Of a DNA stretch of 64,000 nucleotides, positions 16,267-32,754 are shown one piece after another. The notes under the pieces are model-generated. The model saw nothing but the letters and a program-made list of their open reading frames with translations, ran no database searches and had not been told where the DNA came from. The translations under genes were made by a program, and so were the position numbers. Source of the DNA: Streptomyces albogriseolus (lineage in GTDB: Bacteria; Actinomycetota; Actinomycetes; Streptomycetales; Streptomycetaceae); the NCBI GenBank assembly GCA_014650475.1, contig BMVA01000002.1, forward strand, positions 620,001 to 684,000, read 5' to 3'. Each line of letters starts with the position of its first letter. Position 1 is the first letter of the stretch.

Positions 16267-17037
16267 ATGACCACCGAGCCCGTCATCACCCTGCGGGGGG
16301 TGCGCGCCGAGCTGGGCTCGCGCCCCGTGCTGCGCGGCATCGACCTCACCGTGCACCGCGGCGAGGTCGTCGCCCTGCTCGGCGCCAACGGCTCCGGCAA
16401 GTCCACCGCCGTGCGCACCGTGATCGGCCAGGTGCCGGTCACGGCCGGGGAGATCGAGCTGTTCGGCGCCGAGCGGCGCCGGTTCCGCGACTGGGCGCGG
16501 GTGGGCTACGTCCCGCAGCGCACCACGGCCGCCGGCGGGGTGCCCGCCACGGTCACCGAGGTCGTCTCCTCGGGACGGCTCGCCCGCACCCGTTTCGGCC
16601 TGTTCCGCAAGGCCGACCGGGAGGCCGTCCGCCGGGCCCTGGAGCTGGTCGGCATGGCGGACCGCGCCAAGGACTCCGTCGACGCCCTGTCCGGCGGCCA
16701 GCACCAGCGGGTCCTCATCGCCCGCGCGCTCGCCTGCGAACCAGACCTGATGATCATGGACGAGCCGATGGCGGGCGTGGACCTGGCCAGCCAGGAGATC
16801 CTCGCCGAGACCCTGCGCACGCAGGTCGGCCGCGGCGCCACGGTCCTCCTCGTCCTGCACGAACTGGGCCCGCTGGAGCCCCTGATCGACCGGGCGGTCG
16901 TGCTCCGTGACGGCTGCGTGCTGCACGACGGCCCGCCGCCCAAGGCGGTCGGCCAGCACGCCCTGCCCGGCCACGACCACGTACACCCGCACGCACCGGC
17001 GGACGCCGGACCGATCCGCACGGGACTGCTGAGCTGA
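16267..17037 (+). CDS. znuC: Zinc ABC transporter ATP-binding protein
   Basis: 256 residues with all ABC ATPase motifs: Walker A GANGSGKST, signature LSGGQHQR, Walker B LMIMDEP and the H-loop in LVLHEL. The C-terminus has a short His-rich tail (GHDHVHPHA), in keeping with zinc handling. I chose ATG 16267 with GGAGG five bases upstream; an in-frame GTG at 16234 overlaps the znuA end but has a poorer site. The stop overlaps the znuB ATG. Confidence 0.94.
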   Translation: MTTEPVITLRGVRAELGSRPVLRGIDLTVHRGEVVALLGANGSGKSTAVRTVIGQVPVTAGEIELFGAERRRFRDWARVGYVPQRTTAAGGVPATVTEVVSSGRLARTRFGLFRKADREAVRRALELVGMADRAKDSVDALSGGQHQRVLIARALACEPDLMIMDEPMAGVDLASQEILAETLRTQVGRGATVLLVLHELGPLEPLIDRAVVLRDGCVLHDGPPPKAVGQHALPGHDHVHPHAPADAGPIRTGLLS

Positions 17038-17939
17038 TGGAGATCCTCGACTACGCCTTCATGCAGCGGGCGCTGCTCGCCGCCGTCCTGGTCGGCGTCA
17101 CCGCCCCCGCCGTCGGCGTCTACCTCGTCCAGCGCCGCCAGGCGCTCATGGGCGACGGAATCGGCCATGTGGCGATGACCGGCGTGGGCCTCGGCTTCCT
17201 GCTGTCCTGGTCCCCGGTGTGGATGGCCGCCGTGGTCTCCGTCCTCGGCGCCGTCTTCATGGAACTGGTCCGCTGGTACGCCCGGACCCGCGGCGACATC
17301 GCCCTCGCGATGCTGTTCTACGGCGGCATGGCCGGCGGCGTCATGTTCATCAACCTCGCGCCCGGCGGCTCCACCTCGAACCTCTCCTCGTTCCTGTTCG
17401 GCTCGCTGTCCACGGTCTCCCCGTCCGACGTGACCGCGATCTGCGTGCTGGCCGCGTTCGTGGTGCTGGTCACCGTGGGCCTGCGGCGGCAGCTCTTCGC
17501 GGTCAGCCAGGACGAGGAGTTCGCGCGGGTGACGGGCCTGCCGGTGCGGTTCCTGAACCTGCTCACCGCGGTCACGGCCGCGGTCACGGTGTCCGTGGCG
17601 ATGCGGGTGGTGGGCCTGCTGCTGGTGAGCGCGCTGATGGTGGTGCCGGTCGCGGCGGCCCAGCAGCTCACCCGGAGCTTCGCCGCCACGTTCGCCGTCG
17701 CCGTCGCGATCGGCGTCAGCGTGGCCGTCGGCGGCACCGTCACCTCGTACTACCAGGACGTGCCGCCCGGCGCGACGATCGTGCTGCTGACCATCGGCGC
17801 CTTCATCCTGCTGACCGCGCTGGCCGCCCCGCTGTCCCGGCGCCGCGCCCGGGCGCAGGCCGCCGCACGGCCCGGCGCCGACCCCGCGGAGTGCTCGATT
17901 CCGGCCAGCCGTCCGGCGGACGGCAAGGTCGGCGCCTGA
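17037..17939 (+). CDS. znuB: Zinc ABC transporter permease
   Basis: A 300-residue integral membrane protein of the ABC-3 metal permease family with about eight helices. It starts at the ATG overlapping the znuC stop (TGATG). The segments RRQALMGDGIGHVAMTGVGLG and VVGLLLVSALMVVPVAAA are family hallmarks. With ZnuA and ZnuC it forms the high-affinity zinc importer. Confidence 0.93.
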   Translation: MEILDYAFMQRALLAAVLVGVTAPAVGVYLVQRRQALMGDGIGHVAMTGVGLGFLLSWSPVWMAAVVSVLGAVFMELVRWYARTRGDIALAMLFYGGMAGGVMFINLAPGGSTSNLSSFLFGSLSTVSPSDVTAICVLAAFVVLVTVGLRRQLFAVSQDEEFARVTGLPVRFLNLLTAVTAAVTVSVAMRVVGLLLVSALMVVPVAAAQQLTRSFAATFAVAVAIGVSVAVGGTVTSYYQDVPPGATIVLLTIGAFILLTALAAPLSRRRARAQAAARPGADPAECSIPASRPADGKVGA

Positions 17940-25022: not shown

Positions 25023-26195
25023 TCAGCCCCGGTCGACCATCCAGGTGCCGTCCTCCTCGTCGTCGACCCGGACCTCCAGCTCGCGCAGGCTCATGCCGGC
25101 CTCCCACAGTTCACGGAAGCGCTTCATCCGGTCGTGCACATGGTCCTGACGGGCGATCAGCCGGGTCCGGATGTTGACGTCGCGCAGGTCCTGGTCGATC
25201 TCGAAGGACACCGCCTCGTCGTACACGATGAAGTCGTTGGTGGTGCCGCGCAGCAGGTGCGGCGGCAGCTCCGGCAGGACCGCCACGCGCACCTCGATGT
25301 GCAGCACCTGCTGCTCCTCGCACAGCCGCAGCAGCCGGTCGTCCAGCTCCCGGGCGCTCTCCAGCAGGAACAGCCGGCGCACCGGGACGCCCTGCTCGAT
25401 CGCCTCCGCCTGGGCGTGCAGATAGCGGCTGGCGGGCTCGCTGTTCCAGAACGTCCGGTCCACGGAGGTGCTGGTGGCGCAGATGGACTTCTCCGCGGCC
25501 CGGGTGAGGGTGAGCATCCAGTCGTGGTTCTCGCCCGGGCACTCCGCGGTGAGGGTGGTGAGGTCGCTCAGGTGCCCGATCACCCGCTGCATCTCCAGCC
25601 GGACGAAGGTGGAGAGGATCGGCAGGCCGGGCGAGAGGACCTCGGCGAAGTTGGCGGCCAGGTCGGACACGGATTCGATGCGCACCAGGGGCGGCGCCGG
25701 CGGTTCGGGCTCGGCCGGTCGGGGCGGGGGCACCAGGCGCGTCTCGACGAGCTGCTTCATGTCCTCGGTGTGCCGGGTCAGCCCGTGCTGGAGTTCGTCG
25801 TAGCGCCGTAAGCCGCCGCGCACGGTGGCCGCGGTCTCCGCCAGCAGGCTCTCCGCGCGCCGGGCCCGCTCCTCGGCCGCCCGGTCCGGGACCAGGACGA
25901 GGTGCTGGACGGCGACGGCGGCGACGGCGACCAGGGCGGCGGCGCCGAGCTGCCGAGCCGCGCCGTCCTCCGGGCTGAGCAGCGCGGCGAGGCCCCAGGC
26001 GAGCAGTCCGGCGACCAGGCCCACCAGCAGCCTGCGCCGCCACGGGACGGGGTCGGCGCGCTCGGCCGGACGGGCCGCGGGCGTGTCGGGGGCGCCGGAC
26101 GTCTCCGGCGTCCGGTCCTCGGGGTGTTCGGGTGTGCCCGCCGCGCCCGGCGGGCCGGCCGTGGCGTCGGGCTGAGGTGTCTGTGCCGTGCTCAT
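25023..26195 (-). CDS. Membrane protein with coiled coil and cytoplasmic domain, unknown function
   Basis: 390 residues. In order: a Pro/Thr-rich disordered segment (1-50), two membrane helices (about 55-73 and 83-102), a charged coiled coil (about 106-155) and a cytoplasmic domain of about 200 residues (ICATSTSVDRTFWNSEPASR, GVPVRRLFLLES, TTNDFIVYDEAVSFEID). The last part loosely recalls phospholipase-D-like folds, but no HKD catalytic motif is present, so any activity is uncertain. ATG 26195 has a GGAG site; an in-frame ATG nine codons earlier is possible. Residue 129 is encoded by a rare TTA codon (25809-25811). Last gene of the six-gene operon. Confidence 0.75.
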   Translation of the reverse strand: MSTAQTPQPDATAGPPGAAGTPEHPEDRTPETSGAPDTPAARPAERADPVPWRRRLLVGLVAGLLAWGLAALLSPEDGAARQLGAAALVAVAAVAVQHLVLVPDRAAEERARRAESLLAETAATVRGGLRRYDELQHGLTRHTEDMKQLVETRLVPPPRPAEPEPPAPPLVRIESVSDLAANFAEVLSPGLPILSTFVRLEMQRVIGHLSDLTTLTAECPGENHDWMLTLTRAAEKSICATSTSVDRTFWNSEPASRYLHAQAEAIEQGVPVRRLFLLESARELDDRLLRLCEEQQVLHIEVRVAVLPELPPHLLRGTTNDFIVYDEAVSFEIDQDLRDVNIRTRLIARQDHVHDRMKRFRELWEAGMSLRELEVRVDDEEDGTWMVDRG

Positions 26196-26315
26196 CTCGC
26201 TTCTCCCCCCGTTGGGAAACACGTCGGTTCGGGATGCGGAATGTGCGTGGGGGTCCGGACGAGGCCGCTCACGGCTGGTGGGCGTCTCGCGGGCAGGGGT
26301 CGGGTCGGGGCGCGT

Positions 26316-27353
26316 TCAGGGCGCGGGCTCCACCTCCCGGTGCACGGGCGGGATCGCGTGCAGGGTGAGCTGGTCGCGGACGCGCTGCACCAGGGCGAGC
26401 CACTGCCGGGTGAACCCGGGCCGCTCCTCCAGCGCCTCCCACAGCGGGGCCAGCTCCCCGGACACCCGGGCCCGCGGCATCCACAGGTGCAGCAGATGGT
26501 CGACGGCCGGCCGCAACGCCCTGACCACCGGCGGCAGTGCGCCGTCCGCAGCGGCACGGGGCCAGGGTCCGGGCGCGGCCGGGCCGAGACGGATGCCGTC
26601 GAGGACGCGGACCAGCGTGGTCAGCAGCCAGTCGTGCAGGGCCAGGTCGTCGCAGAGGCCGGCCAGATCGGCGGCGGGGATGTCCTCCGGGACCCGCAGC
26701 CGCACGGTGCGCAGCTCGTCCTCGGCGAGGGTGAACCGCTCCAGGGCCGGGGCCTCGCCCGGCGGCGCCGTCAGCGCCACCCAGCGCAGCCGGGTCTGCC
26801 GGGACCTCAGCGGCGGCCGCTGGTCGAGCAGCGGGTGCCGCAGCAGCCGGGTGAGCAGTCCCCCGGCGATCAGGCCCACGTCGAGGTCGCCGTGGCGTCC
26901 GCCGTCGAGCAGTCCGGCGGCGACCGCGTCGCACGGCAGCTTCCCCAGCGGCTCGACCAGTCCGGGCCGCACCAGGTAGTCGCCCCAGGGCCGGCGGTGG
27001 TCGGGCCCGGAGGCGGGGAGGGTGAAGTACGCGGAGGTCTGCAGCACGCGTCCCTCGGTGAGCGCGGCCCGCGCGGCGACCGTGCCGACGGCGCGGACCC
27101 GGGCGCCGTTGGCGCTGGGCAGCGGGCAGTCGACGCCGGTGAGGATGTCCGGGGAGCGCCCGTAGAGGTTGGGACGCTCGGACACCAGGACCCGCTCGTC
27201 GGCGCGCAGCCGCAGCAGCTGGGCGGCGGCGCGGCTGTCGAGGGCCTGCCCGGCGGGCAGCAGGCAGGTGCGGACCTCGCCGCAGGCCAGCACGGTGCGC
27301 GGCGCGGCGGTGCCGGGCCGCGCACCGGGGGCTGTCCTGGTCGCGGCCGGCAT
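26316..27353 (-). CDS. SCO2521-type protein of unknown function
   Basis: 345 residues, soluble, with no motif I recognise. The N-terminal region has TVLACGEVRTCLLPAGQALD and the middle LPCDAVAAGLLDGG, while the C-terminal third is helical. It starts one base after the stop of the preceding gene (TGAGATG), so translation is coupled. I link it from memory to the uncharacterised Streptomyces family named after SCO2521, mainly because its neighbours fit SCO2522 to SCO2525 in order. The gap of about 120 nt to the next gene is the largest inside this operon. Confidence 0.7.
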   Translation of the reverse strand: MPAATRTAPGARPGTAAPRTVLACGEVRTCLLPAGQALDSRAAAQLLRLRADERVLVSERPNLYGRSPDILTGVDCPLPSANGARVRAVGTVAARAALTEGRVLQTSAYFTLPASGPDHRRPWGDYLVRPGLVEPLGKLPCDAVAAGLLDGGRHGDLDVGLIAGGLLTRLLRHPLLDQRPPLRSRQTRLRWVALTAPPGEAPALERFTLAEDELRTVRLRVPEDIPAADLAGLCDDLALHDWLLTTLVRVLDGIRLGPAAPGPWPRAAADGALPPVVRALRPAVDHLLHLWMPRARVSGELAPLWEALEERPGFTRQWLALVQRVRDQLTLHAIPPVHREVEPAP

Positions 27354-27354
27354 C

Positions 27355-28317
27355 TCAGGTCTCCTCGCAGAAGACGTAGGAGACGCGGTCGGCGACCGGG
27401 CCGGGGACGGGCACGCCCTCGCCCGCGGACCGCTCGGCGACCTGGCGCAGGGCGTCCCGGTCCACGTCCGTCTGGTCGAGGACGACCCGCACGGCGTGCT
27501 CGACGGGCAGGAAGCGGCTGGGCAGCACCGAGCAGGTGCGGTAGGCGGCGAACGGGTCCGCCCGCGGGTTGAGCCGCACCAGCGGCGGCAGGTCGTCCCA
27601 GTCGTCGGGGAACGCGCCGGTGTGCGGCCTCGGGTCGAAGACGGCCTCGCCCTGGTGGCGCAGCAGCCCGAGGCGGGCGAGCTGCCACACCGCGGCCAGG
27701 AAGGGGCAGGACCAGAGGCGCTCCCCTTCGGGCGTCTCGTTCCACAGCTCGACGTCGAGGAACACGGAGTGGCGGCGGGCGGCGGTCTCGCGGGGCGGCT
27801 CCCAGGCGGCGGCCTTCCGCATCGCCTGCGGGGCGCGGACGGTGGGGCTGCGCACGCCGTTGGCCAGCCAGCCGGTCTGCGCGGCGGGCGGCCGGTGGCC
27901 GTAGCTGCCGGGCGGCGGTTCCTCGACGAGCCGCCCGGCCACCGCCTCCGCGACGGGCACCTTCCCGCTGACGGCGCAGCAGGACTCGCGGGCCAGGTAG
28001 TCGACGGCCAGCCCCGCGCGCTCGGCCTCCGCCAGCAGCATGGGGACGACCTCGGCGGGGCTCGCGAACCGGGTGAAGTAGTCGTCGATCAGGAAGCAGG
28101 TGCTGATCCGGGCGCGCCGCCCGCCGGCCCGGTCGGCGGCGAAGGCACGGGCGGCCTCCGCCCAGGGACGGACCCGCGCGAAGTGCCGCCGCAGATGCTC
28201 GGGCCCCGCCTCGAAGTCCTCCATGTACAGGTGCCCCAGCTCCAGGGAGAGGTGGGACAGCGGCACCGCCTGGGTGCGGGGTTCGGCGGTGGTCTCACGG
28301 AACACCGCTTCGGTCAT
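27355..28317 (-). CDS. SCO2522-type protein of unknown function
   Basis: 320 residues, soluble. Conserved-looking features are SHLSLELGHLYMEDFEAGPEH near the start, ISTCFLIDDYF at about 71-81, and paired Cys in ARESCCAVSG. None gives a known activity. Its ATG overlaps the stop of the P-loop gene (ATGA) and its stop is one base before the next start, so three genes are translationally coupled. Assignment to the SCO2522 family rests on recalled gene order. Confidence 0.7.
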   Translation of the reverse strand: MTEAVFRETTAEPRTQAVPLSHLSLELGHLYMEDFEAGPEHLRRHFARVRPWAEAARAFAADRAGGRRARISTCFLIDDYFTRFASPAEVVPMLLAEAERAGLAVDYLARESCCAVSGKVPVAEAVAGRLVEEPPPGSYGHRPPAAQTGWLANGVRSPTVRAPQAMRKAAAWEPPRETAARRHSVFLDVELWNETPEGERLWSCPFLAAVWQLARLGLLRHQGEAVFDPRPHTGAFPDDWDDLPPLVRLNPRADPFAAYRTCSVLPSRFLPVEHAVRVVLDQTDVDRDALRQVAERSAGEGVPVPGPVADRVSYVFCEET

Positions 28318-29231
28318 GGCAGCCCCCAGTACGCGTCGTCGGTGAGCCGCCGGGCGATCTCCTCGAGCGCCTCCAGCGTCTCCTTGTTGGCGATCTGGGT
28401 GGCGAGGACGTCCTCCTCGGTGATCAGCTGCTCCCGCCACTGCAGGATCGGCTCCAGCGGCACGGTGCCGAGCACCACGCTGTCGCCGATGTACTGGTCG
28501 GAGGCGAGCCGGCGCAGCGCCCTGTTGCAGGACTGCATCCAGGCGGCCTGGGCGGGCGAGCCCTGCGCCCACATGGCCGACTCCGGGTCGGGCACGGCGG
28601 CCCGCACGAAGCGGATGTTGCCCTGGAGGGTCGCCTCGTCGTGCCCGCGGTCGACGCCGCTGCGGAGGATGCCGTTCTCCTTGTGCACCAGTCCCGCGGC
28701 GGCGATGACGTGCTGCCGGGTCCAGCGGTGGAACACCAGCCAGCGGTAGGCGACATGGCGCATCCGGGGGTGCGCGGTGGCCGCGAGGACCAGGTCGACG
28801 GCGTAGCTGCGGCCGGCGCTGAGGTCCACCATGACCAGGTCGAACTCGCTGTTGAGCCGCAGCAGCAGGTCGATGCAGCGCTCCAGCGCCTCCTCGCCGG
28901 TGGCGAACTCGCCGCCGCCCGCGTCGCCGGGGTAGAGGACGAGCCGCCCGGACTGGTTCTGCCGGGCGCGCAGCACCGGGTGCTCGGTCTGCCGCCAGAT
29001 GTCGATGCTGGCCGGTTCGGTGACCTCGCCCTCCAGGTAGGAGTGCAGGCCCCGCTCCTCGGTGCCGCGCAGGGCGCTGGGCACGTCGAACACGGCGGCG
29101 GCGGTGGGCGAGCCGAAGTCGAAGTCGACGTAGGCGACGTGGTCGCCGACGAGGGCGCGCTGGTAGGCCAGGTTGGCGCTGGTGACCGAGCGGCCCGTGC
29201 CTCCCTTGTCGGAGGCGGCGAAGACGAGCAC
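28314..29231 (-). CDS. ParA/MinD-like variant P-loop protein (SCO2523 type)
   Basis: 305 residues. The N-terminus is that of a deviant-Walker ATPase: FAASDKGGTGRSVTSANLAY. The signature Lys before GG is kept, but the P-loop Lys just before Ser is replaced by Arg (GRS instead of GKT/GKS). A Walker A' segment (VAYVDFDFGSPTAA) and a Walker B-like LVMVDLSAG follow. Such proteins dimerise on ATP and position or switch partners. The Arg suggests altered or lost hydrolysis. It starts at GTG 29231 with GGAGG upstream, 3 nt after the preceding stop. Confidence 0.8.
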   Translation of the reverse strand: MLVFAASDKGGTGRSVTSANLAYQRALVGDHVAYVDFDFGSPTAAAVFDVPSALRGTEERGLHSYLEGEVTEPASIDIWRQTEHPVLRARQNQSGRLVLYPGDAGGGEFATGEEALERCIDLLLRLNSEFDLVMVDLSAGRSYAVDLVLAATAHPRMRHVAYRWLVFHRWTRQHVIAAAGLVHKENGILRSGVDRGHDEATLQGNIRFVRAAVPDPESAMWAQGSPAQAAWMQSCNRALRRLASDQYIGDSVVLGTVPLEPILQWREQLITEEDVLATQIANKETLEALEEIARRLTDDAYWGLP

Positions 29232-29234
29232 GGC

Positions 29235-31079
29235 TCAGCCCTCCTGTGCGGCGGCGTCCCGGGCCTGGGCCAGGGTGTCGAGTTCCCGCAGGACGGGCAG
29301 GGCGAGCGCGAAGGCGGTGGCGGGCCGCTCGTCGACCAGGCCGCGGGCGTGGTCCAGCCGGTTCTCTATGCTCCGCATCGCCCGGGCGCGGCTGCCGTCG
29401 TCGCCGGTGGACGCCTCCAGCTGCTCCCTGCCGAACAGGTGCGTGGCCTCGCTGAGCAGGTCCCGGGCGAGGTCGGCCAGGTCGGGACTGCGGATGGGCT
29501 CCTGCTCGTAGAGGTTGCGGGCGGCGACCAGGCACTCGGTGACGCGTTCGGTGACGCTCCAGGACAGGCGGCGGTTGACGCCCTTGGCGTCCGGGAAGAC
29601 GGCGCGTACGTCGTCCCAGAGGCCGGCGCCGTGGCCGTCCTCGATCCTGCGGCTCCACAGGTGCTCGAAGGTCTGCTCGGCGAGGCGCAGCAGCCGGTCC
29701 TGCGCCTCGATGTTCCGGGACAGCTCGGCGAGCTGCACGGTCCGCTTGAGCAGCTGGGCGGAGAAGTCGGTCATCCGCCACTGGAGCAGCGACCCGGAGC
29801 GCTCGGACCCGGCGAGCGGCATCAGCACGCCCGGGTCGTGCAGCCGGACCACCGGGTCGTTCCTGGTCATGCGGCTGGTGACGCGGCCGCGGTCGGCGAG
29901 CCGCTCCATGATGGAGACGGTGCGGGTGAGGTCGTCGTCGGTGGCCCTGCGGCGCACCAGGTCGTGGACGAGGATGGCCGCGACGGTGAGCGAGAAGTAC
30001 TCGGACTCCAGGCGCAGTCCGGTGGTCTGCCAGGGCAGGTCCTCCAGGGGCCAGCGCTCGGTGCCGAAGCGGGCGACGGCCGACCAGTACTGCTGGCTCA
30101 GCTCCCAGCGCAGCCGCAGCGCCTCGGCGAGTTTCTGCTGGTCGGCGTCGAGCAGTCCGAGGGTGAGGGTGCGCTCGGAGAAGAGGTCCTGGATGCCGTC
30201 GAGGGCGACGACGGTGAAGTACACGTACGGCAGCCGGTCGGCGATGCCGTCGGGCTGGCCGGGCACCTGGGTGTCCAGGTCGGTGATTCTGGGGGCGTCC
30301 TTGACGACGCCCCAGGCCCAGCCGCACTCGAAGAGCTGGCTCTCGTCGCGGATGGACTCGTCGACCTGGATGCCGCGGCTGAGGCTCTCGATGATGGTGG
30401 CGCGCAGCGGCCGGAAGCGGCGGGCGAACTGCTGGAGGACGGCCCGGTCGGAGTGCCGGTTCTGGCCGATGACCTGGATCAGCCGCCGGCCCTGTTCGGA
30501 CTCGGCGTCGAAGACGTTGACGGTGAAGGAGCGCAGCAGGCTGATCATGGCGGCGGTGAGCCGCAGATTGGTGGCCTCGCGGAGTTCGCCGAGCGCCCGG
30601 CGCACGTCGGGGCGGGTGGTGCTGTTCTCGTAGACCTTGAGGAAGCCGAGGGTCGCCAGGCAGAGCGTGACGGACATCGAGTAGGAGTCGACGACGCCTA
30701 ACTTGCCCTGCTCGTACGTCAGTTCCGTTTGCGGGTCGACGGGTTTGAAGTACGGTCCGCCGGCGAAGGTGGGGGAGTCGTCGGGACCGGTGTGGGTGCG
30801 CATGAACTGGGTCAGCGCGGTGATCAGGTTCGGCGGGATCTCCAGCCGGCTGCCGACGCGCTCCAGCGCCTGGAGCACGTCCCGTTCGCTGGTGTCGGGC
30901 TGGTCCAGGCGGAACGCGGGGATCTCGGTGGCGGGGTACAGCAGGCAGAGCAGCCGCTCGGCGTCCGCGACACTGCTCAGCCCGTCGGTGTCCCCCCACA
31001 CGAGCTTGCCGTCGTCGAACGAGTGGCGGGCCGCGGCCCGCCAGATGTCCAGCAGATGCTGGCGTGGCTTGATCTGCAT
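29235..31079 (-). CDS. Large helical SCO2524-type protein, unknown function
   Basis: 614 residues, apparently all helical and soluble, without a recognised domain or catalytic motif. It begins MQIKPRQHLLDIWRAAARHS and contains FAGGPYFKP, YEQGKLGVVDSYSMSVTLCL and a long C-terminal run of amphipathic helices that suggests a scaffold or repeat-type fold. Leu127 is encoded by TTA (30699-30701). The ATG at 31079 is preceded by a G-rich site. The gene lies 45 nt after the methyltransferase and 3 nt before the P-loop gene. I relate it from memory to the SCO2524 family. Confidence 0.75.
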   Translation of the reverse strand: MQIKPRQHLLDIWRAAARHSFDDGKLVWGDTDGLSSVADAERLLCLLYPATEIPAFRLDQPDTSERDVLQALERVGSRLEIPPNLITALTQFMRTHTGPDDSPTFAGGPYFKPVDPQTELTYEQGKLGVVDSYSMSVTLCLATLGFLKVYENSTTRPDVRRALGELREATNLRLTAAMISLLRSFTVNVFDAESEQGRRLIQVIGQNRHSDRAVLQQFARRFRPLRATIIESLSRGIQVDESIRDESQLFECGWAWGVVKDAPRITDLDTQVPGQPDGIADRLPYVYFTVVALDGIQDLFSERTLTLGLLDADQQKLAEALRLRWELSQQYWSAVARFGTERWPLEDLPWQTTGLRLESEYFSLTVAAILVHDLVRRRATDDDLTRTVSIMERLADRGRVTSRMTRNDPVVRLHDPGVLMPLAGSERSGSLLQWRMTDFSAQLLKRTVQLAELSRNIEAQDRLLRLAEQTFEHLWSRRIEDGHGAGLWDDVRAVFPDAKGVNRRLSWSVTERVTECLVAARNLYEQEPIRSPDLADLARDLLSEATHLFGREQLEASTGDDGSRARAMRSIENRLDHARGLVDERPATAFALALPVLRELDTLAQARDAAAQEG

Positions 31080-31124
31080 CCCCCTACCCCTCGTACAGAC
31101 CGTGTGCAGACATGGTCCCCGTTC

Positions 31125-31877
31125 CTACGTGTCCGCAATCGCCGAATTCCGCCGCCCCAGGGCGAGGATGATGCCCTCGTGCCCCTCGCGCACCATGTGG
31201 TGCAGATCGTGGATCTCCAGGTCGTCGGCCCAGTCGTTCAGGCTCTCGCGGACCCGCTCCTCGTTGACCCGGTAGGCCGGATAGCGATGGTCGCCCACCC
31301 GGTAGCCGACGGACTCCTTCATGAAGGCGGCGGCGAACGGCGCGCCTTCGTTCAGCGCGTCCATGAAGCAGGTGACGCCGCGGCGGAACTCGTCGGGGCA
31401 CTCGGACATGGAGTCGGCGACGAAGAACATGGTGCCGATGTCCCAGCGGCGCTGGCCGTCGAGGTCGAGGAGGTTCGCCCGCTCGACGCGGACGATCTCG
31501 CCGAACCGGCCGCGGGGCTCGACGGCCGCGTAGGCGGGGTGCTCGCGCAGCTGGTCCCAGAAGGGGTCCCAGACGGTGTCGAACCCGGCGGGGGACGCCT
31601 GCTTCTCCAGGTACTCCACGTTCGGCTGCGCGTACTCCAGGAGCAGGATCTTCTCGCACCAGGGCAGCATGGACAGCGCCGGGTAGAGGTTGGCCCCGGC
31701 GCCGACGTCGACGCCGCGGCCCGTGCGCGGGGCGTCGTCCTCGAAGCACTTGCCGAAGTAGTCGCGCATCAGCCGCACGATCAGCAGATCGACCTCGAGA
31801 GGGCTGCGGTAGTTGGCGTCGACGTAGGCCTCAGGATCGAACTTCGACCACGGGGCGTCGGCGTTACGGTCCATCAT
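31125..31877 (-). CDS. SAM-dependent methyltransferase, NNMT/PNMT-like (SCO2525 type)
   Basis: About 250 residues. The entry segment WSKFDPEAYVDANYRSPLEVD and the SAM-binding loop GVDVGAGANLYPAL, followed by LLLEYAQPNVEYL, match the layout of the NNMT/PNMT/TEMT methyltransferases, which methylate small amines. The methyl acceptor cannot be deduced. Three starts are possible: ATG 31895 with no ribosome binding site, or the paired ATGs at 31877 and 31874 behind CAGGG. It is the first gene of the six-gene operon, so the promoter should lie just upstream. Confidence 0.78.
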   Translation of the reverse strand: MMDRNADAPWSKFDPEAYVDANYRSPLEVDLLIVRLMRDYFGKCFEDDAPRTGRGVDVGAGANLYPALSMLPWCEKILLLEYAQPNVEYLEKQASPAGFDTVWDPFWDQLREHPAYAAVEPRGRFGEIVRVERANLLDLDGQRRWDIGTMFFVADSMSECPDEFRRGVTCFMDALNEGAPFAAAFMKESVGYRVGDHRYPAYRVNEERVRESLNDWADDLEIHDLHHMVREGHEGIILALGRRNSAIADT

Positions 31878-32214
31878 CACCCTGCCGCGTTCCATTCAGT
31901 GTCGGACAAGACCGTGTGCCCTGTCTGCGCCGTTCCGCTGAACGTCGGCAGGTGGAGCAGCATCTCCGGTTCTCGCACGGTAGGCCGAAGTGGCACGCCG
32001 AGACAGCCAGGAACACGCCGTTCCCCGTCGACGGGCGCACGGCAGGCGCACGCCGGCGATCCGTGCACCCCTGAACTCGCCCTTGCACGCGGTGAGTTGA
32101 CGGCTCACTCTAGCCAGAAGACGCCACCGGCCGCCACCGGAAGCAGCAATCCCTTCCGGGTGAACGCCGGTGTCTTCGCGTTGACGCATCCGCATGTCCC
32201 GACTGGGGGGTGGC
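31878..32214. other. Divergent control region of the six-gene operon
   Basis: About 335 nt separate the methyltransferase start from the GNAT gene on the other strand and should hold both promoters. I see no strong -35/-10 pair, no long inverted repeat and no credible gene. Confidence 0.5.
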
Positions 32215-32754
32215 ATGACCGCCGAACCGCTGGAGCGCACCTTGGACCGGCACGGGCGACTCGCGGAACCCGACGGGTTCCGGGCGCCCGGGCATCTGGT
32301 CCTGCGGGGGGCCCTGGAGTCCGATCTGCCCGAGCTGCGCCGGCTCGACGAGGAGGTGTTCCAGGAGGTCGCCTATCCCGCCTTCCTGCTCCGCCAGCTG
32401 TACGACGTCTACGCCGAGCACTTCCTGGTGCTGGACGACGGCGCGGGCGGGCTGCGCGGCTACGTCCTGGCCGCCACCACCGCGTTCAGCCGGGACAGCT
32501 GGATCCTCGGCCTGTGCGTGACCGAGGGGGACCGCCGGCACGGGCTCGGCCGGGAGCTGATGACGGAGATCCTGAAGCGGCTGCGCCGTGACGGGACCGA
32601 GACGGTGCGGCTGACGGTGGAGCCCGCCAACCGGGCCGCGATCCTGCTCTACCGCTCCCTCGGCTTCAGCCCGGAGGAGCCGGACGACGGCCTCCGCAGG
32701 GACTACTTCGGTCCGGGTGAGCACCGGCGGATCATGCGATTGGAGCTGTGCTAG
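32215..32754 (+). CDS. GNAT-family N-acetyltransferase
   Basis: 179 residues of the acetyl-CoA-dependent GNAT fold. Motif A is recognisable as ILGLCVTEGDRRHGLGRELM (the CoA pyrophosphate loop R-x-x-G-x-G/A) and motif B as NRAAILLYRSLGF. The substrate is unknown. I chose ATG 32215, directly after a run of six G; the longer in-frame ATG at 32194 has no site. It is divergent from the methyltransferase operon and convergent with the TerB-like gene. Confidence 0.88.
   Translation: MTAEPLERTLDRHGRLAEPDGFRAPGHLVLRGALESDLPELRRLDEEVFQEVAYPAFLLRQLYDVYAEHFLVLDDGAGGLRGYVLAATTAFSRDSWILGLCVTEGDRRHGLGRELMTEILKRLRRDGTETVRLTVEPANRAAILLYRSLGFSPEEPDDGLRRDYFGPGEHRRIMRLELC

Follow-up and report, generated by a model that had tools for sequence, protein, structure and literature searches.

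The closest described relatives of the locus analysed here are five protein families defined in NCBIfam as SCO2521–SCO2525 (NF040564–NF040568), whose names say nothing of function other than 'methyltransferase' and 'variant P-loop protein'. A 2004 abstract by Gehring is said to describe an influence of SCO2525 on colony growth and development. In the portions available of two papers, SCO2525 is termed 'necessary for normal growth', with Gehring 2004 as reference 98, and is credited with 'a morphogenetic role' under reference 57, in a text that also carries the title phrase of the Gehring paper, respectively; the accessible text of PMC11472566 describes sco2521-sco2526 as one HupS-controlled operon. 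As far as these portions go, they lend some printed backing to the developmental role suggested in an initial annotation of the locus. That locus lies in a 64,000-nucleotide stretch of Streptomyces albogriseolus (contig BMVA01000002.1, positions 620,001 to 684,000; hereafter the window), in which six minus-strand open reading frames occupy positions 25023–31877; placement and strand were verified and agree with the initial annotation. An NCBIfam hidden Markov model search placed five of the six proteins over the cut-offs of the families proposed for them: SCO2525 (315.7 bits, cut-off 240), SCO2524 (940.3, cut-off 300), SCO2523 (504.9, cut-off 200), SCO2522 (487.5, cut-off 200) and SCO2521 (406.1, cut-off 150). 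The sixth protein stayed below every NCBIfam cut-off, with one chance-level match, and lies outside these families, as do a GNAT acetyltransferase and an alternative, pore-like membrane partner described below. No description of the system was found in the literature searched for the loci, their families and their neighbours, in agreement with its designation as undescribed.

We show that a four-gene core and a GNAT-like gene are inherited as one cassette, to which most loci add either of two alternative membrane proteins. The survey covered 119 loci, comprising the window, 40 fetched stretches and 78 named loci. The named loci were retained from the top 80 among 400 confirmed stretches, the ranking being relative to a first sequence of Nocardia type; 73 of them are therefore from Nocardia, the rest coming from Frankia, Solihabitans, Umezawaea, Actinokineospora and a Pseudonocardiales metagenome-assembled genome, and the 119-locus counts describe a non-random sample. 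SCO2524-2523-2522-2521 occurred in the same order and on the same strand in 117 loci. The exceptions were L178, in which no SCO2521 match was found despite approximately 4 kb of following sequence, and L181, in which SCO2523 is split into two pieces. The core is not always contiguous, a membrane gene lying between SCO2523 and SCO2522 in L105 and another gene in L155. Because the order is kept across several families, its conservation extends beyond close relatives, as expected of the conserved system that had been postulated.

A GNAT match above 60 bits was present in 102/119 loci and some membrane partner in 111/119. The partner was a DUF6879 membrane protein (type I) in 36 loci and a pore-like membrane protein, C1 (type II), in 75, and the two never occurred in one locus. 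The methyltransferase was present in 34 loci and absent from 85; type I cassettes usually carry it too. The six genes as first drawn belong to a real, conserved system of soil actinobacteria, and the unit needs amendment around its four-gene core: the methyltransferase is accessory, the membrane gene belongs to the system as one of two alternatives rather than as a fixed component, and the GNAT gene had been overlooked. With a methyltransferase in only 34 of the 119 loci, methylation does not hold as the central coupling of the system. Two cores per neighbourhood, some of them truncated where the stretch ends, were observed in L131, L140, L145 and L189; those of L189 are oppositely oriented and face one another. 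L199 carries an additional lone SCO2522 copy at 16716-17654 (-).

The two cassette types were also separated by a concatenated-core tree of 61 loci (20 of the 78 named loci, the 40 fetched stretches and the window), which splits with support 1.0 into 37 leaves (36 with DUF6879, one with neither partner) and 24 leaves (23 with C1, one with neither). As each side of this split has its own partner type, exchange of the membrane partner happened few times. Loci L101 and L102, from two genomes of one genus, have flanks that are 92–96% identical on the left and 88–93% on the right; the segment between them aligns in parts only, at 65–74%. One genome has GNAT, methyltransferase, core and DUF6879 protein there, the other has GNAT, core and C1. 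This difference is best read as replacement of the whole cassette, and the edges of the replacement delimit the functional unit independently of annotation.

The divergent GNAT gene is part of this unit. Its product matches PF00583 at 52.3 bits (gathering threshold 20.7), and we take it to be RimI-like. Among 199 genomes of the window's own genus, SCO2524 exceeded its cut-off in 39 and a GNAT match was found in 39, with 38 in common, at a GNAT threshold of E 1e-20 that lets in two weak members (G555, 3e-23; G559, 2.5e-22); the mismatches were G427, with the core and no GNAT, and G580, with GNAT and no core. In the Nocardia-type genus (148 genomes), 107 had the core over its cut-off and 109 a match to the GNAT profile; 105 had both, two the core only and four GNAT only. 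Fisher tests of this co-occurrence, which ignore relatedness, gave 1.5e-38 and 6.6e-28, respectively. The GNAT gene lies divergently upstream in most own-genus cassettes, convergently downstream in most Nocardia and on the same strand elsewhere. The G580 locus (L205, on G580:C11) is decayed, retaining GNAT and a SCO2521 fragment about 8 kb away, with the other core genes unmatched within 19.5 kb. If S. coelicolor numbering follows the gene order of the window, SCO2526 would by position be this GNAT gene, and the HupS-controlled operon would include it.

By hydropathy, the membrane protein of the window shows two hydrophobic segments close to the N terminus (residues 56-74 and approximately 78-102), in line with the two helices first described, and its C-terminal region matches DUF6879 (PF21806) at E 0.056 and 13.3 bits, below the gathering threshold of 23.9. 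At E up to 1, DUF6879 was detected in 9/11 type I members (best 6.7e-11). The type II partner matched the Ion_trans_2 family (PF07885) below threshold in 3/5 members (best 14.7 against 22.5 bits), and the TOK1 pore at E 1.1.

Two of the proteins had been set aside as lacking known motifs. This stands for SCO2521, whose model gave no clear match to a known fold, and is revised for SCO2522, whose model predicts a class-I aminoacyl-tRNA-synthetase-like catalytic Rossmann (HUP) fold. The structural matches listed for it were ArgRS, CysRS, MetRS, GluRS and MshC, and every listed alignment reaches residue 320, the last of the protein. As the best-supported, though tentatively held, reading, we propose that the cassette is a module for an amino-acid-type small molecule, equipped with a nucleotide-binding switch and delivering its output at the membrane. 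The co-inherited unit and its two types are established by the survey, the folds are predicted, and we infer the nature of the ligand, any catalysis, the switching and the output at the membrane. SCO2522, as a highly derived class-I synthetase-like domain, would bind or couple an amino-acid-type ligand (an amino acid, an aminoacyl-tRNA or an aminoacyl small molecule), and its product would be modified by GNAT and, where present, by the NNMT-like methyltransferase. The MinD-like SCO2523 would bind nucleotide and serve as the assembly switch of a SCO2524/2521 complex, the state of which may be passed on to the membrane partner, type II resembling a two-helix channel pore. The output would act on the colony growth and development of mycelial actinobacteria; the named carrier organisms are mycelium-forming.

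Several findings weigh against this proposal. Eight of the 119 loci have neither membrane partner, and four of these (L141, L142, L178, L201) also lack GNAT; the exclusivity of the partners reflects few independent events, with partner type tracking phylogeny. Simple hydropathy gives two segments in only 7/11 type I and 4/7 type II partners. GNAT is distant from the core in some Nocardia-type genomes (e.g. G990, G995, G1068), and six Nocardia-type copies contain one stop each (TGA in G956, G988, G995, G1006 and G1013; TAG in one of the two G1076 copies), so GNAT can be lost. For SCO2522, Foldseek returned one PDB match below E 0.001, with a template-modelling score of 0.40. The HIGH motif (HxGH) and the KMSKS motif were each found in 0/41 copies, and the protein may therefore be catalytically dead; an ExGH occurs in 41/41 copies, but is located in strand 1 of the model. 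Comparison of the SCO2522 profile with the ArgRS and MshC profiles returned nothing, the positive control being likewise negative. In SCO2523, the Walker-A lysine is replaced by arginine in 122/122 copies (KGGTGRS in 120, KGGAGRS in 2). The ligand, the enzyme activity and the interactions are themselves inferred rather than demonstrated.

The deviant Walker A of MinD/ParA ATPases, KGGxGK[ST], is not matched by SCO2523, and the 'ATP-switched' complex of the initial annotation is consequently unproven. Compared with MinD/ParA/Mrp ATPases, SCO2523 has a KGG-type P-loop, and its MinD and Mrp matches are weak; no NCBIfam cut-off other than that of SCO2523 was reached, and Pfam CbiA was barely at threshold. 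Another explanation, to which we give a low probability, is a MinD/ParA-like spatial or scaffolding complex that marks or organises hyphal membrane sites through the membrane partner; the Walker-A-arginine protein would bind nucleotide and hydrolyse little, and SCO2522, GNAT and the methyltransferase would be mainly binding or protein-modifying parts. Such a complex is consistent with the MinD and Mrp models matching all 12 SCO2523 members scanned, with the invariant KGG and the switch-like [VIL]D[LV]SAGR stretch in 117/122 copies, with a SCO2522 devoid of synthetase motifs and with a membrane partner in 111/119 loci. Against it, the lysine is missing in every copy and none of the six proteins matched a ParB- or MinE-type family; the tightly co-inherited GNAT and small-molecule-type methyltransferase are left unexplained.

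The distribution of the cassette is patchy. Beyond the two genera considered above (39/199 own genus, 107/148 Nocardia-type), SCO2524 exceeded its cut-off in 37/394 genomes of the class, representing 7/137 genera, and SCO2523 in 7/396 genomes of the phylum. SCO2522 homologues were found in 32/325 genomes, every one of them SCO2524-positive; five more SCO2524-positive genomes lie outside this list, perhaps not sampled. SCO2524 homologues in G838:C361 and G885:C182 each contain one in-frame stop and are candidate pseudogenes or assembly errors. This patchiness (39/199 and 37/394) would fit a conflict or abortive-defence system, a reading we consider unlikely, in which the core detects an infection or a competitor and then opens an effector in the membrane (the pore-like type II or the DUF6879 type I protein), while the acetyl- and methyltransferase act on a tRNA, a messenger or the effector. 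Whole-cassette replacement in L101/L102, the repeated cores of L131, L140, L145 and L189 and the alternative membrane proteins point the same way, as do, in the accessible part of Kaur et al. 2020 (PMC7159879), inactive MinD/ParA-like domains reported in conflict systems of multicellular bacteria. However, a PADLOC-DB scan of the six proteins gave one weak P-loop match only (17.8 bits), and no match was found in the plasmids searched with SCO2524 or in the phages and viral contigs searched with SCO2523. Regulation ascribed to HrdB and HupS, and the growth or morphogenetic role ascribed to SCO2525, in the available portions of the literature, also argue against defence, as does the possibility that GNAT decays while the core persists.

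A further alternative is a purely biosynthetic cluster in which SCO2522 and the core make an amino-acid-derived metabolite that is tailored by GNAT and the methyltransferase and exported with the help of the membrane protein, with no signalling. The tailoring-type enzyme folds are compatible with it, and, according to the part of PMC2922099 available, derived class-I synthetase domains are already known from pathways for non-ribosomal peptides, where some adjoin methyltransferase or GNAT genes. We regard it as quite improbable: among the six proteins there is no oxidase, nor any known transporter or carrier family; two of the core proteins gave no match resembling an enzyme; 85/119 loci do without the methyltransferase; and the MinD-like protein is left unexplained.

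The small-molecule module proposal can be extended, with little confidence, to a more specific form. SCO2522 would then found another branch of enzymes that use amino acids or aminoacyl-tRNAs and descend from class-I synthetases, next to the cyclodipeptide synthases (CDPSs) and MshC. Its GNAT-modified product would be an intracellular signal read, via the MinD-like switch, by a membrane protein, namely the channel-like pore where the cassette is Nocardia-type and the DUF6879 protein where it is Streptomyces-type. Were that so, mycelial actinobacteria would use a previously undescribed class of membrane signalling by small molecules. SCO2525, in print a developmental methyltransferase, is only an accessory to a conserved cassette of several proteins whose membrane output is exchangeable. 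The core, the GNAT gene and the precise replacement-allele pair are concrete parts to delete and swap. The synthetase-like SCO2522 is predicted to bind either an amino acid or an aminoacyl compound or else tRNA; if this is right, an enzyme derived from translation would be connected with how antibiotic producers and Nocardia grow and develop.

The features of the cassette in the window are listed in Table 1. From 5' to 3', the gap between the methyltransferase and SCO2524-like genes is +45 nt, followed by the three tight junctions first noted (+3 nt, -4 nt with an ATGA overlap, and +1 nt) and by +120 nt before the membrane gene. Ratios of nonsynonymous to synonymous substitution rates (dN/dS), calculated against two close relatives, were 0.09-0.34 for the six genes and the divergent GNAT gene, so the operon is more than a chance arrangement. 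The methyltransferase matches PF01234 (NNMT/PNMT/TEMT) at 39.9 bits (gathering threshold 25) and, weakly, nicotinamide N-methyltransferase in the PDB (E 6.6e-5); a Pfam scan of the SCO2524 protein of the window gave no match. Within the divergent intergenic region, a block at approximately 32079-32117 is conserved among nine aligned own-genus sequences and is possibly a shared promoter or operator. TTA leucine codons occur at 30699-30701 (codon 127 of the SCO2524-like gene) and 25809-25811 (codon 129 of the membrane gene); at least one TTA codon was found in 17/25 own-genus cassettes, at varying positions. Neighbouring genes in the window encode an MMPL protein, a histidine kinase, a TerB-like protein and a LeuA-type synthase.

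Table 1. Features of the cassette in the window.
Feature	Coordinates	Strand	Basis or remark
SCO2525-family S-adenosylmethionine methyltransferase, NNMT/PNMT/TEMT type, accessory	31125..31877	-	NF040568, PF01234
SCO2524-family protein, 614 residues, core	29235..31079	-	NF040567
SCO2523-family MinD/ParA-like P-loop protein, KGGTGRS replacing KGGxGKS/T, core	28314..29231	-	NF040564
SCO2522-family protein, predicted class-I aminoacyl-tRNA-synthetase-like fold without HIGH or KMSKS, core	27355..28317	-	
SCO2521-family protein, confidently modelled, core	26316..27353	-	No clear known fold
Membrane protein (type I partner): two hydrophobic segments, linker, DUF6879-like region	25023..26195	-	Hydropathy, DUF6879
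Divergent single-domain GNAT acetyltransferase, belongs to the unit	32194..32754	+	PF00583, co-occurrence
Divergent intergenic region, methyltransferase/GNAT	31878..32193	.	Likely promoters of both

Further described systems were compared with the cassette. MshC, a cysteine ligase, and MshD, a GNAT, are mycothiol enzymes. MshC keeps KMSKS in the rows checked, whereas SCO2522 does not; SCO2522 was not listed against the MshC model TIGR03447 up to E 10, and the genome encodes a separate, real MshC (G000:C21). Elsewhere in the same genome, outside the window, a frame at G000:C24:88445-89359 matches the ArgRS profile over 31-108 and 416-568 only, without the catalytic middle, and similar split or partial ArgRS-profile matches occur in several other genomes. 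VMAP and related conflict systems share with the cassette inactive MinD/ParA-like domains, as far as the accessible part of PMC7159879 describes them, but the MoxR ATPase and vWA protein needed for the VMAP ternary system had no Pfam match in the six proteins.

In the available portion of PMC2922099, CDPSs, which are strongly derived class-I synthetase (HUP) domains, resemble tyrosyl and tryptophanyl synthetases and carry GxSxxp after strand 1, whereas SCO2522 matches ArgRS, CysRS, MetRS, GluRS and MshC; the CDPS signature is unconserved in SCO2522, with a loose pattern in 5/41 copies. As described there, CDPSs nevertheless have, like the predicted SCO2522, a class-I-synthetase-like Rossmann fold without HIGH and with an insert after strand 3, and some adjoin methyltransferase or GNAT genes, as in the cassette.

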